This document shows positions 26,232 to 45,336 of a DNA stretch of 64,000 nucleotides, piece by piece. How positions within the stretch are numbered: the stretch's first letter is position 1; every line of letters begins with the position of its first letter. The stretch spans positions 124,001-188,000 of the forward strand of contig JACPUC010000029.1 in NCBI GenBank assembly GCA_016192455.1, written 5' to 3'. A model generated the notes under the pieces. That model was not told the origin of the DNA. It worked only from the letters and a program-made list of their open reading frames with translations, and made no database searches. Both the position numbers and the translations under genes were made by a program. The stretch is from Candidatus Tectimicrobiota bacterium. GTDB lineage: Bacteria; JACPUC01.

Positions 26232-27635
26232 TCAGCCGACGCGATCGTACTCCCGGACGCGAAACTCAACCCCCAGTTCCACCTCGGCGAGCCGCCGGCA
26301 CGCTTCAATATCGACGGGGGCGCCGGGGATGCCGCGCACCGCCGTGGCAATCACCCGCGGCAGAGCGTCGCGGCAGCGCCGGATGAACTCCAGCACGGCG
26401 TCGTACGCCCGCGGGCCGAACCGCGGCCGGCAGACGGCGACGTAGCCCTGCGGCGTCTCGGCATTCAAGCTCACACTCACGGCATCAATGAGCCCCACCA
26501 GCTCCGGCACGATGTCCCGCTTGTGGATAAGGTTGCCGTGGCCGTTGGTGTTGAGCCGCACCGGCAGACCATGCGCCTTGCAGTAGCGTGCCACGTCAAG
26601 CAAGACAGTCAAGCGAAGTGTTGGTTCCCCATAACCGCAAAAGACGATTTCCTCGATGCCCTCGCTGCCGGCCGCTAGATGCTCCGCCACGGCGCCGCAC
26701 AGCGCCTCCGTCGTCGGCTCTTCCCGCAAGCCAAGGAAGTGGCCCTTCACGCTGGGGTCGAGCTCGCGGGCGCAGAAGCTGCAATCGCTGGTGCAGCGGT
26801 TGGTGATGTTCAGGTAGAGACTGCGGCGGATGCGGTAGGCAATGGCGCCCTGCCGCTCTGGGCCGCCGCCGTCGAGCCGGAAAAGACGGCGGGCGTTGAA
26901 GCTCGTGATGCGCGCCAGGTCGGCGACGGTGAGCCCATGCAGCTCGGCCAGCCTGGCGGCCGTGTGCAGCACGAAGCTCGGCTCGTTGCGCTTGCCGCGC
27001 CGCGGCGCGGGGGCAAGGTACGGGCAGTCGGTCTCCACCATGAGGCGGTCCACGGGCAGGGCCTTGGCGACGCCGCGCAGGGACTCGGCATTGGCGAAGG
27101 TGAGCTGGCCGGCGAAGGAGATGAAGAAGCCGAGTTCCAGGCAGGTCTCGGCAAGGGCCTGGCTGCCGCTGAAGCAGTGCATGACGCCGCCGCGCTCCTC
27201 GGCATGCTCCTCGCGCAGGATGGCGAGGAGGTCGTCCCCGGCATCGCGGCAGTGGATGACCACGGGCTTGCGCACCTGCCGCGCCAAGCGGAGCTGCCGG
27301 CGGAAGACTCGCCGCTGCGCCTCGATGGGCGCGTAGGCCTTGAAGTAGTCGAGGCCCGTCTCCCCCACCGCCACCACCTCGGGCCGGCGCGCGAGCTCCT
27401 CGAGCCGCGCCCAGCTTTCCTCATCCACCCCTTCGGCGTCGTGCGGGTGGATGCCGGCGGTGGGGTGGAGCCGCGGGTGCCGCGCCGCCAGCTCAATGGC
27501 GGCGAGGCTCGAGGCCACGTCCGTCCCCACCACGATGATCGCCTCGATCCCCGCGCCGAGGGCGCGCTCGATGACGGCCTCGCGGTCGGCGTCGAAGTGC
27601 TCCATGGTGAGATGGGCGTGGGAGTCGATGTACAT
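26232..27635 (-). CDS. TatD-family deoxyribonuclease fused to a radical SAM domain
   Basis: A 467-residue fusion. Residues 1-255 form a TatD metal-dependent hydrolase: the HxH of DSHAHLTMEHF, the glutamate in VGETGLDYF, VIHCRDAGDD, MHCFSGS and ETDCPYLAP. Residues about 265-467 form a radical SAM enzyme with the cluster motif CTSDCSFC and GYGEPTLRL. This TatD-linked radical SAM architecture is a known family (TIGR04038-like), usually found in anaerobes and deltaproteobacteria, but its radical reaction has not been established. The start codon lies 8 bases after the metG stop, so it is translated from the same message. TatD itself has 3'-5' exonuclease activity in other bacteria. Confidence 0.9.
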   Translation of the reverse strand: MYIDSHAHLTMEHFDADREAVIERALGAGIEAIIVVGTDVASSLAAIELAARHPRLHPTAGIHPHDAEGVDEESWARLEELARRPEVVAVGETGLDYFKAYAPIEAQRRVFRRQLRLARQVRKPVVIHCRDAGDDLLAILREEHAEERGGVMHCFSGSQALAETCLELGFFISFAGQLTFANAESLRGVAKALPVDRLMVETDCPYLAPAPRRGKRNEPSFVLHTAARLAELHGLTVADLARITSFNARRLFRLDGGGPERQGAIAYRIRRSLYLNITNRCTSDCSFCARELDPSVKGHFLGLREEPTTEALCGAVAEHLAAGSEGIEEIVFCGYGEPTLRLTVLLDVARYCKAHGLPVRLNTNGHGNLIHKRDIVPELVGLIDAVSVSLNAETPQGYVAVCRPRFGPRAYDAVLEFIRRCRDALPRVIATAVRGIPGAPVDIEACRRLAEVELGVEFRVREYDRVG

Positions 27636-38938: not shown

Positions 38939-39129
38939 CGCACCAGTCCCTCTTCCCGTGCCCCCACTGCCCCTTGCAACGCTGACCACCCCGCCGCGAG
39001 CCGCCCGGCACCCCCGCCGCTCGCCTCAGCCATCCTATACCACGCCCGATGCGCCGGGGCAACCGGAAGCGCTGCCAGGCCTGAGGCGCGGGTCGCCTGA
39101 GGAGGGCGCACGCAGCGCCTCCTTCATCG

Positions 39130-39170
39130 CCAGCCGCAGGGTAACCCCGATGAGCTTTTTTTGCGGCTGG
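39130..39170 (-). terminator. hairpin directly after the TOPRIM-protein gene
   Basis: A perfect 9-base inverted repeat, CCAGCCGCA (39130-39138) and TGCGGCTGG (39162-39170), begins at the base next to the stop codon of the TOPRIM gene. The 23-base loop contains a run of seven T (A on the minus strand). Placement suggests a transcript end or a boundary of the inserted module; the loop is long for an intrinsic terminator. Confidence 0.4.
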
Positions 39171-39779
39171 CTATGGAGGACTTCCCAAAAGTTCGCTGAG
39201 GCGTTGGCGGCAGCGTCTCAAACTGTCGGAGCGCCTGGCGGCCATGCCCGGCCTCCAATGCTGGGCGGCGAACTCGCTGAGGTAGGAGGTATAGAGAGGA
39301 CCCACCTTGCGGCCGCTTCCGAGGCGGGGGGGCAGGTGCTCGCGCACGTCCTTGCGACGCGACTTCCGGGCAAGCTGAACGACGGTTTCCTTGGGATTCT
39401 CAAGTTGCTCCGGCCTTTGGGGGATCGTTGATCCCGCCACGCCGAAAAAAGCAGCGAACTCCTCCATGTCGGCAAGGAGCCACGCCTCCACCGCGCGGAC
39501 GGCAACGCGGAAGCACATGTGCCGCGCCGGATCAGGCAGGTGGCGGACGCGAAACGGCGGGGCGCAGTCTGCATCCCCATTGAGATCAACCAAGACGAGC
39601 CATCTGCCGTGTTGTGCGGCCTGGTTATACCCCCGAAGCTTCTGCAAGAGATGCGGCTTGCCATTCTTGCCATACACGGAACCGGTCTTCGCCCCTGCGC
39701 TTGCAAAAAGGCGGCGCAGCACGACTTCATCCACAATTCCTTCCACCACGCAGTTTACGAGGATGCCAGACTCAGCCAC
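39171..39779 (-). CDS. DUF4276-like TOPRIM protein, partner of the upstream ATPase
   Basis: A 202-residue protein with the features of the DUF4276/TOPRIM-like family. An early glutamate lies in NCVVEGIVDEVVLRRLF (TOPRIM strand 1 plus E), followed by the acidic DxD-like motif WLVLVDLNGDADC and RVAVRAVEAWLLADMEEFAAFFG, a conserved helix of the family. TOPRIM domains in OLD, GajA and AriB are metal-dependent nucleases or nucleases-like effectors. Start is GTG at 39777-39779, 6 bases after the ATPase stop, so the two form an operon. Less GC-rich than neighbours. The nuclease role is inference; DUF4276 activity is not firmly established. Confidence 0.75.
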   Translation of the reverse strand: MAESGILVNCVVEGIVDEVVLRRLFASAGAKTGSVYGKNGKPHLLQKLRGYNQAAQHGRWLVLVDLNGDADCAPPFRVRHLPDPARHMCFRVAVRAVEAWLLADMEEFAAFFGVAGSTIPQRPEQLENPKETVVQLARKSRRKDVREHLPPRLGSGRKVGPLYTSYLSEFAAQHWRPGMAARRSDSLRRCRQRLSELLGSPP

Positions 39780-39785
39780 AATCGT

Positions 39786-40946
39786 TCAAGCTCCAAACAT
39801 CGAGAGGTTTTCAGCACGCTCGGGTCGGGTGCGGGGCATGACTGCTTCACCAAGGTGGTGTCCGCCATCAAGCAGGTCCATAATTTCGTCGAACGCGCTT
39901 GCCGGCCGAACGGCCGTTCCTTCGTGCTGCGGCATGAAGAGCAGGGCCTCGTCGAGGCCGATTCCCGGATCGGTCAGGAGATCGGCGGAATGGGTGCTGA
40001 GAATGATCTGCCGCCCTGAATCACGCTGGATGCGGGCGAACATCTGGGGGATGTATCTCACCACCTCCGGATGCAGGGAGAGCTCCGGCTCCTCGAGCAG
40101 GAGTGGTCCGGACCCATCGAGCAAAGCCCAGAGCAAGCCCATAAGCCGCAATGTGCCATCGGAAAACTGCTCCTCACTTTGCCAAGCGCCACGGTGGCGC
40201 CAGTGCTCGTACTTTCCACGTAGGTGAGGGGTGCCTCGTACATCCCGATGGAGCTCAAGACCACTCAATTGCGGCACAGCCACACGTAATGCATCCAGGA
40301 TGCGCCGGAGCCGTGAGGCTTGGGTTTTCTCCGGAGCACGGGCAATCTGCTCGATAAAATCTCCACCATAGGGATCGTGCTGCCTACCAATGGAACGATC
40401 TGGTTCGCGTACCAGTTGAGGGACAACGTGCAGGTAGCGGATCGAGCCAAAAAAATCAACCAACTCACGAAACTTTTGATTGGCGTAAACCTGTTCGAGA
40501 TGGGTTTGCGTCAGCCTTTCAGGATCACGTCGGTCATTCCCGTCCGGCCTCTTCAAGATGATGTCGTCATTCTTAATCACCAGTTCTTCTTTAATCATTG
40601 GTCTCTGACGGTTGTCCTGGCTGAAGCGCAGACTGTATTCCCATGTTTCTGCTTCTTCTTCGGGGCCAACTTCCACATTGATGAGAAGATCAGAATACCG
40701 ACGAGCTGCCAAGCAACGGAGACGCGAGACGCCATCCCTTTTCCGAACAGCTTCTTGAAAGCCTCCACCCACAGAAACGATGTCCCGAAGGAAACGGAAC
40801 ACATCGAGAAAGTTCGACTTCCCGGAGGCATTCGGACCGACGAGGAAGACGCGGCGCTGAAGAACTAGATCAACGTCTGCGAAGTTGCGCCAGTTTGCGA
40901 GCTTTAGCGCTGCAACGCGGAGCGCCTTTTTCGCTGCTCGTTTCAC
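39786..40946 (-). CDS. AAA family ATPase (ABC/OLD-like, AAA_21 type) of a putative defence pair
   Basis: A 386-residue SMC/RecF-like ATPase. After KLANWRNFADVDLVL comes the Walker A motif FLVGPNASGKSNFLD, then a helical/coil insertion, and near the C-terminus the ABC-type signature EEQFSDGTLRLMGLLWALL, Walker B LLLEEPELSLHPEV and H-loop IILSTHSADLL. These are the marks of the AAA_15/AAA_21 ATPases of OLD-class systems such as PARIS AriA. GTG at 40944-40946 is preferred because GGAGGT lies 6 bases before it; a GTG at 40970 is in frame upstream. Followed by the TOPRIM protein gene. Base composition is lower in GC than the flanks, suggesting transfer. Confidence 0.85.
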   Translation of the reverse strand: MKRAAKKALRVAALKLANWRNFADVDLVLQRRVFLVGPNASGKSNFLDVFRFLRDIVSVGGGFQEAVRKRDGVSRLRCLAARRYSDLLINVEVGPEEEAETWEYSLRFSQDNRQRPMIKEELVIKNDDIILKRPDGNDRRDPERLTQTHLEQVYANQKFRELVDFFGSIRYLHVVPQLVREPDRSIGRQHDPYGGDFIEQIARAPEKTQASRLRRILDALRVAVPQLSGLELHRDVRGTPHLRGKYEHWRHRGAWQSEEQFSDGTLRLMGLLWALLDGSGPLLLEEPELSLHPEVVRYIPQMFARIQRDSGRQIILSTHSADLLTDPGIGLDEALLFMPQHEGTAVRPASAFDEIMDLLDGGHHLGEAVMPRTRPERAENLSMFGA

Positions 40947-41193
40947 TTGCGTACCTCCGCTTGATGCCACAGTTCAGAAAAAACGTCGTTCACGCTCGTA
41001 ACCGCAATATCCAGCTCGCCTTGGAAAGGTTGGCGAAGGTGGCGCGCCTCGGAGCCGTCGTCGTCCACGCGCGCAAGGGGAGATGGCGACTACGCACCAC
41101 CTGCCCATCTTCCTACACCACTTTCCCCAGCTCGCAGCAACCGCGAAGCGTCCCGGCGTCGCGGCCCCCCCTCCTCAGCGGATTTCCGCCCCC

Positions 41194-41499
41194 TCAGCCG
41201 CTCGGCATCGAGGGGATGACGGCGGAGCTGTAGTCCCCCTTCTTGGCGGCCGCCTGGCCGTTGCCGCCGCCGGGGGCGAGGCCGTACTTCGCCAGGTTGA
41301 TCTGCTCGTAGCCGGGAACGCGCACGCGCTCGGGGAACTCCCGGCCGAGGGGCTTGGTGGCGTTGCGGATGTTGATGAAGCCCGACTCGACGCGCGGCAC
41401 CATGGCGGTGTGGCAGATGGGGTCGCGCCGCGAGGTAATCGCCTGCGCCTCGAGGCAGGGACACGGGCCGGCCGGAAAGGCGCGACGCGCGACGCCGCC
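41194..41499 (-). pseudogene. coding fragment with no usable start, unknown family
   Basis: The frame from 41499 down to the stop at 41194 is open for about 100 residues, and nearly every codon ends in G or C, as in real genes of this genome; the other frames look like shadows of it. The only ATG is at 41403, without a ribosome site, and homology-like sequence (LEAQAITSRRDPICHTA) continues upstream of it to a TGA at 41500. The C-terminal part contains VPGYEQINLAKYGLAPGGG. A loose likeness of ITSRRDPI to UbiD-type decarboxylases was noted but the rest does not fit. Most likely the 3' end of a gene truncated by the neighbouring insertion. Confidence 0.4.
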
Positions 41500-43804: not shown

Positions 43805-44097
43805 CTCAAAGAAGTCCGAGCATATCTGCAGCATAGCAATCACATCCGTAGACAGACGGCGCAGCCCTCACCTATCTTCACACGCAAAGGAGTTGGCGCC
43901 CCGCCGAGTATCAGCCGCAACTTTCCTTGCATCGCTTCGCGGCAAGAAGCCTCAGCACCTCCCAGATAGAAAGAAGGCTCTTTGGGCGAGCCTCTTGTCA
44001 AGTAAAGTTCCTAAGGCTCGTGTAATTCGAGACGCAGGGGAAGGCGTTTTTCTACGTACAGACAATAGCGTCTCACATATGTTCGAAGTTAACAGAT
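43805..44097. other. AT-rich intergenic region
   Basis: About 290 bases, clearly AT-richer than the window average. An 80-codon frame on the plus strand has no family features or ribosome site. It joins the AT-rich channel gene and probably came in with it. Confidence 0.4.
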
Positions 44098-45336
44098 CTA
44101 CTCCCTACGAGCAAACTTATTGGCGAAGATACTAACCATCCCCCCTAGCATTAGATAGCCAATGACCACTTCAAGTGTCACAAAAAGTTGGCCAGATAAA
44201 TTGCAAGGTCGAATATCCCCAAAGCCGAGAGTCGTAAACGTAACAACGCTGAAATACCACGGAGTAAACCACGTCTTGGCACTTTGTATCACTATACAGG
44301 GATCGCCTACTTCCCGCAACCAACTTTGTAAATCCGGCCACCTCTCAAACCAGTGAGTGAAACCGAGGTTAGAATATAAGAACCCGAATATCAATGCAAT
44401 AACGGCTTCTGTCGCACACCATCTTTTAAAGTTTCGGCCGTAATCTGATGTGACACCCCAAAGAAAATGAAGCAATGAACGTATCCCCCACCTCGGTTGA
44501 AAGAATGCATATTTGCTTGCTAGGCACAGTTTTCGTATTCCTTTTCCCGCTTCTAAATTAGTCCGCCGATTTGTGGATAACCAAGAGAGAATTTCGCGTT
44601 CACGCTGTCCTAAGAAGATCTCGTCATACAGATGACGCTTGAAACTTGGATGGTGGTCTAATGTTGGCTGGCCATATAGCCTCAGACCACGCAGTCGAGT
44701 CTTGCCATTGAAGTTAACTTCTGTAATATCGGCAAAAAATGTAGACCCTGAAAGAATTGCTGAGGAAATATTTGCTCTTGTCAAGTTCGTCTGGATAAGC
44801 TCCGCCTGGTGAAGATTAGCGCCCTCGAGATTAGCGTCAGTCAAGTCTGCATTAAAGAGATTAGCCAGTGTAAGGTCGGCACCAAGGAATGAAGCATATG
44901 AGAGCTTAGCTTCTCGTAAATCAGCACATCGCATTTTGGCCTTGCTGAAGTTTACTCCTATAAGTCTTGCTCCAAAGAGATGGGCTAGAAAAAGACTTGC
45001 TCCCTGGAGAGATGACCCAGTAAGATCAGCGCTTCCAAGCTGAACCTCATTAAGCTCAGCACCATCGAACGCCGTGAGATGAAACCTCGTCCGACGAAGA
45101 TCTAATTTGCTTAGAATTGCACTACAGAGATTTGCATGGTCGAATGAGGCATCTTCGAGTTTTGCATCACTTAGGTTGGCCTTTCTAAGATTGGCTCTGT
45201 CAAAATTTGCCCCTCTGAGATCGAGTCCAGTTAGATCGGTCGAACTCAAGTCCGGATTCTGAGAATCCTCTTCCCTCCATTTGTTCCATTTCTTAACGCC
45301 TTGGTTGAGCTTCTCCAGATGCTCTTTGTTTGCCAT
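44098..45336 (-). CDS. pentapeptide-repeat protein fused to a two-helix potassium channel pore
   Basis: A 412-residue protein. Residues about 30-215 are pentapeptide repeats (A(D/N)LxxA type: LRGANFDRANLRKANLSDAK and many more), forming a right-handed beta-helix. After a linker, two membrane helices (about 309-328 and 382-402) flank a pore loop with the filter TTLGFGD at 368-374, a TxGFGD variant of the K+-channel signature. So the repeat domain would be the cytoplasmic sensing or assembly part of an ion channel. ATG at 45334-45336. Codon use is AT-rich, very unlike all neighbours, a sign of recent transfer. The family exists in cyanobacteria and others; ligand unknown. Confidence 0.9.
   Translation of the reverse strand: MANKEHLEKLNQGVKKWNKWREEDSQNPDLSSTDLTGLDLRGANFDRANLRKANLSDAKLEDASFDHANLCSAILSKLDLRRTRFHLTAFDGAELNEVQLGSADLTGSSLQGASLFLAHLFGARLIGVNFSKAKMRCADLREAKLSYASFLGADLTLANLFNADLTDANLEGANLHQAELIQTNLTRANISSAILSGSTFFADITEVNFNGKTRLRGLRLYGQPTLDHHPSFKRHLYDEIFLGQREREILSWLSTNRRTNLEAGKGIRKLCLASKYAFFQPRWGIRSLLHFLWGVTSDYGRNFKRWCATEAVIALIFGFLYSNLGFTHWFERWPDLQSWLREVGDPCIVIQSAKTWFTPWYFSVVTFTTLGFGDIRPCNLSGQLFVTLEVVIGYLMLGGMVSIFANKFARRE

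Follow-up and report, generated by a model that had tools for sequence, protein, structure and literature searches.

The closest described systems combine an ATPase with a TOPRIM domain, in one protein or in two. In PARIS, the hexameric AriA ATPase holds AriB until phage Ocr frees it; freed AriB dimerises and cleaves tRNA-Lys (PMC11455837), acting as a two-metal RNase (PMC12409363). OLD and GajA are fused ATPase-TOPRIM DNA nucleases (PMC10568477), and HEC-04/IbfA, an ATPase-TOPRIM fusion too, is reported to confer resistance to T4 and T5 (PMC12111858). HEC, short for "Hma-embedded candidate", names a set drawn from a preprint of 2024 (10.1101/2024.01.29.577857, cited by PMC12988326), and HEC systems from PADLOC have been counted in other surveys. 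In the literature covered, outside which the 2024 preprint's own tests fall, no experimental study of HEC-01 itself was found.

A gene pair and its family

The window analysed here, the whole stretch of 64,000 nucleotides from a contig of a Candidatus Tectimicrobiota bacterium, contains two adjacent genes that belong among these systems:

39786-40970, minus strand: ATPase gene, HEC-01A, 394 aa (PDLC04180 HEC-01A match, Pfam AAA_21, motif conservation)
39171-39779, minus strand: partner gene, HEC-01B, 202 aa (PDLC04194 match, 21-sequence alignment, model, DUF4435 profile match)

The ORF list places the ATPase gene upstream and the partner gene downstream with a 6-base gap, which recovers the two-gene, minus-strand layout described in an earlier, sequence-only reading of this DNA. 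The lower GC content claimed there is also borne out: the window as a whole has 67%, the ATPase gene 56% and the partner gene 63%, and GC3 of the two genes (0.58 and 0.71, respectively) lies below the 0.83-0.96 of the neighbouring conserved genes that were tested. The neighbours encode thymidylate kinase, a DNA polymerase III delta' type protein, TldD/PmbA, a DJ-1/PfpI protein, a class IV aminotransferase, a PNPOx-type protein and a nitrilase-type hydrolase. Being odd in composition among such ordinary genes, the pair is to be seen as a compositionally odd insert. A search of its own genome found no second HEC-01. The possibility that the window copy sits in a defence island was considered and rejected: when 9 neighbouring proteins were scanned against PADLOC there was no specific match, the sole one being that of a TatD/radical-SAM ORF to generic models.

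Both proteins are recognized over their full length by the HEC-01 models of PADLOC-DB. HEC-01A (PDLC04180) matches the ATPase at 517.6 bits (E 5e-156), with residues 18-391 of 394 aligned to positions 2-380 of 382 of the model, and HEC-01B (PDLC04194) matches the partner at 200.8 bits over residues 6-197 of 202. Relatives of the pair give similar scores with the two models. Because of these full-length matches, the pair is to be placed in a catalogued candidate family rather than presented as something new. It is almost certainly an intact HEC-01 system, full-length in both genes, and it adds to the family a copy from a phylum with one genome in the collection. Gene order is that of HEC-01, and there is no difference of kind: the window copy has DLN for DLD and sits outside any defence island, while one relative is Hma-embedded. 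The proposal that the pair represents an undescribed branch of PARIS finds no support here, since the best AriA model reaches 114 bits on the ATPase, against 517.6 for HEC-01A, and HEC-01 is already catalogued with sub-models of its own. That AriA model (length 304) gives nearly the same match as the generic Pfam AAA_21. No AriB model matched, so that a comparison with the AriA and AriB profiles finds the first and not the second, with HEC-01 scoring far higher.

The ATPase

Pfam AAA_21 matches the ATPase with E=6e-34. The complete set of ABC motifs that had been noticed from the sequence is intact: Walker A (GPNASGKS, residues 45-52), an ABC-signature-like motif (SDGTLRL, 270-276), Walker B (LLLEEPE, 290-296) and the H-loop (STHS, 325-328). 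The protein is predicted to be an AAA_21/ABC-type ATPase serving as sensor and restrainer. Its matches in the PDB are to 6p74 (E=4.9e-6), GajA (4e-5 to 8.5e-5) and AriA (0.002), and an hhalign comparison with the ATPases that lie beside DUF4435 proteins aligned 66 columns, around Walker B and the H-loop. A model of the ATPase built from two sequences came out too poor to use (pLDDT 37). The AAA ATPase Mad3 of MADS is also related, at 74.6 bits on the window protein, but this is far below the family cut-off of 420 and there is no MADS operon around the pair.

The partner protein

The partner scores 18.0 bits with Pfam DUF4276 (PF14103), below the gathering cut-off of 30.2. In 19 of 21 close family members, the window copy included, DUF4276 is nevertheless matched at E<=0.01 (best, 1.8e-8), and there is no DUF4435 or AriB match for the partner at any reported level in Pfam, PADLOC or NCBIfam; its assignment to DUF4276 and not to DUF4435 stands. 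Searches of the PDB with phmmer and with profiles yielded no believable match, and no paper was found when the literature was searched for DUF4276 by name.

Alignment of the 21 close family sequences shows E13, G40, D65, C72, E98 and W100, along with other residues, to be invariant. Two residues past D65, Asp occurs in 15 sequences, Asn in 5 (among them the window copy) and Glu in 1. The TOPRIM-like acidic motifs that were originally pointed out are thus upheld in part: E13 and D65 are invariant in 21/21, but DLNGDAD departs from DxD, its second acid being replaced by Asn. DUF4435 proteins beside AriA-like ATPases share with the partner the succession of E, G, DxD and E, and profile-profile alignment of the partner with DUF4435/AriB sets the first E over E and DxD over DxD. 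The E-value of the alignment with DUF4435 is 0.00098 with 10 sequences and 0.0019 with 21. None of 100 column shuffles did as well (shuffle maximum, 17.6; real score, 29.6), the reversed-profile control scored 11.5, and the match is confined to the N-terminal third. What the window pair has in common with PARIS, then, is the order of an ATPase followed by a TOPRIM protein and, by profile alignment, the E/G/DxD motifs. It differs in having a DUF4276-like partner of ~200 aa, where the DUF4435 proteins seen here have ~280-335 aa, and an ATPase that belongs to HEC-01A, not AriA.

A model of the partner, made with 2 sequences, is of low confidence (mean pLDDT 64, pTM 0.60). Its strands (residues 7-11, 31-36, 60-65 and 86-91), with helices between, have the TOPRIM order, and E13 follows strand 1 while D65 ends strand 3. 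The alignment of the model with the C-terminal TOPRIM structures 6nk8, 6njw and 6njv, from two OLD proteins, spans 158-161 residues and has a VIA Z of 6.6-6.9 that is tied with unrelated Rossmann-like folds; the receiver domains among these ties align over ~90-100 residues, against 158-161 for OLD. No Foldseek match of the model passes E 0.001. (AriB is not among the structural matches listed for the model, but this carries no weight.) Since the strand order fits but the Z values are tied and Foldseek offers no significant match, the TOPRIM fold of the partner is likely rather than proven. There is good reason, all the same, to think that the partner is a TOPRIM-nuclease effector.

Relatives and their neighbourhoods

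In the phylum to which the Gammaproteobacteria relative belongs, a search with the HEC-01B model matched 45 of 398 genomes (6 above 150 bits); in a broad draw it matched 24 of 192 (15 above 140 bits, counting the window's own). Nearly all of the matches in the broad draw fall in separate families. One relative came from a scan of genome contigs, scans of viral contigs found no relative of the partner, and neither the ATPase nor the partner was found in plasmid and phage collections. Patchy presence in unrelated families and low GC3 are compatible with horizontal transfer.

The two genes keep company. At 43 of 44 loci inspected, the ATPase gene is directly upstream of the partner gene on the same strand, overlapping it or a few bases away, and at the remaining locus the partner gene is a fragment, broken off where its contig ends. 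Within the close subfamily (21 loci), the intergenic gap ranges from -23 to +9 bases. The identities of the two proteins co-vary (Mantel r 0.73 for 19 pairs, with 0/5000 permutations as high), as would be expected of genes that diverge together, but common descent alone would also yield this correlation.

In another genome (L085, 2926-14982) the pair lies in an intact Hma operon with the order HmaA-[HEC-01A-HEC-01B]-HmaB-HmaC, all on one strand; its Hma proteins score 1103-1647 bits. The finding, made in raw sequence, reproduces the observation behind the HEC name: one defence candidate is nested within another system. Of about 20 neighbourhoods, this is the one with Hma embedding, and the window's own copy lies outside Hma. 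At another locus (L089) a type I restriction gene is ~5 kb from the pair. The neighbourhoods of most relatives are made up of housekeeping genes such as recA/recX, pnp/rpsO and carB/greA (names judged from sequence), and a Pfam tally of 121 flanking ORFs, called mechanically and in part spurious, is not rich in defence families. HEC-01 pairs, it appears, travel mostly alone between housekeeping genes. The sequence-only reading had held that homologues lying mostly outside accessory regions would refute it; most do lie among housekeeping genes, but the Hma-embedded pair and the one near a restriction gene do not conform. Because relatives are usually found outside defence islands, the case for defence is weakened but not removed.

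Proposed function and its alternatives

The pair is, in our judgment, probably a defence module. It is best explained, with a probability of roughly 0.6, as an OLD/PARIS-like module whose ATPase restrains and triggers a TOPRIM nuclease, and the HEC-01 match and the paired order support the ATPase-first, TOPRIM-like-second arrangement with probable anti-phage function that had been suggested from the sequence. The parallels with PARIS, OLD/GajA and HEC-04/IbfA are the reason for proposing that the ATPase senses infection and restrains or gates the small TOPRIM nuclease; it is by these parallels, too, that nuclease activity and an abortive outcome are suggested. HEC-04/IbfA, with its reported phage resistance (PMC12111858), has the same pair of domain types and belongs to the same Hma-embedded class, but it is one fused protein where HEC-01 has two genes, and the two are likened by description, not by sequence.

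In outline, the ATPase would assemble into an ATP-bound complex in which the small TOPRIM protein is kept from acting. The ATPase would be altered by a phage product or by a DNA state that the phage brings about, and the TOPRIM protein, activated or released, would then cleave nucleic acid with the help of two metal ions; its target may be tRNA, like that of AriB, or DNA, like that of GajA and OLD. The infected cell would halt before phage maturation. Restraint and release in the particular manner of PARIS is given somewhat less than an even chance. If it were correct, the principle of an ATPase-restrained TOPRIM effector would extend to the DUF4276 family.

The principal alternative is a split DNA nuclease of the OLD/Gabija kind: the ATPase and the TOPRIM protein would form one lasting enzyme, ATP or the nucleotide state would gate its cleavage of phage DNA, and no toxin would be set free. 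The data at hand fit this reading and a PARIS-like mode alike. The ATPase does resemble OLD and GajA in the PDB (4.9e-6 for 6p74, 0.002 for AriA), it has ATPase motifs in common with them and its partner probably a TOPRIM-like fold, the OLD C-terminal TOPRIM aligns over those 158-161 residues of the partner model, and fusions of the two domains are known from related systems (HEC-04, PMC12111858). We think it unlikely nonetheless: GajA and OLD are single fused proteins, whereas the genes are separate in all relatives seen, that is, in all 43 HEC-01 pairs. No GajB-like helicase was found beside the window pair. PARIS itself, much diverged, is a far less probable identity. Agreement with the gene order of the DUF4435 pairs found here, acidic motifs that are alike by profile alignment and an AriA match of 114 bits have to be set against HEC-01 models that score 4-5 times as high, the lack of any DUF4435 or AriB match at reported levels and a DUF4435 profile match that is limited to the N-terminal third.

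It is also conceivable, but improbable, that the two genes serve addiction or maintenance, as a toxin-antitoxin module, or are an accessory to DNA repair, and have no role devoted to fighting phage. The position of most relatives, alone among genes like recA/recX, pnp/rpsO and carB/greA, and the scarcity of defence families in the flanking ORFs would suit such a function; insertion of a pair within an Hma operon would not, nor would the spread over unrelated families combined with absence from most genomes, nor membership in a family that is defined by Hma embedding. Returning to the ATPase-restrained TOPRIM nuclease, one may speculate, at rather long odds, that HEC-01 is a mechanistically distinct split ATPase-TOPRIM class, with a minimal DUF4276-like effector of ~200 aa, Asn tolerated at the second metal-binding Asp and a conserved ExW in the next helix. 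Its substrate may differ from those of AriB and GajA, and it may be a second line that fires on inhibition of Hma, as PARIS does for restriction systems.

Flanking sequences

One further feature adjoins the pair:

39120-39180, no strand assigned: imperfect inverted repeat, arms 39120-39138 and 39162-39180, 17/19 pairs, 23-nt spacer

The repeat was originally described as a perfect hairpin following the operon, a description that has to be corrected: its arms pair at 17 of 19 positions around the 23-nt spacer, it overlaps the stop codon of the partner gene and it has no T run. It folds only modestly better than shuffled sequences (z -2.1) and is absent from the list of the terminator scan; scans for terminators and promoters gave no signal above chance, and the sole Rfam match is a tRNA. 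The repeat may act to slow transcription or to terminate it. An orphan ORF of 69 aa (41194-41403, minus strand), formerly taken for a truncated gene, separates the pair from the PNPOx gene. Because it matches nothing in Pfam and occurs once in the genome, truncation cannot be demonstrated.

Elsewhere in the window, a single ORF (26232-27635) joins a TatD DNase domain (residues 3-253) to a radical SAM domain (275-433). A second and stronger low-GC island (43893-45336; 45% GC, GC3 0.42) holds a minus-strand gene (44098-45336) for a pentapeptide-repeat protein whose C-terminal domain is that of an ion channel (Ion_trans_2) and for which there is no PADLOC match. Beside one HEC-01 relative (L092, 7178-10576), two ORFs that adjoin on the same strand start near-identically (MPNPKPAPLNFNPDDPTGATWALPEGAIARIGKGY) and, to judge from this likeness, are probably a tandem duplicate. 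WD40/beta-propeller Pfam matches occur in two members of the flanking-ORF tally and were not traced to this duplicate. Small two-gene modules that have, to judge by their sequence, a toxin-antitoxin-like appearance lie near two other relatives (L038, 5636-6348; L039, 1878-2561).
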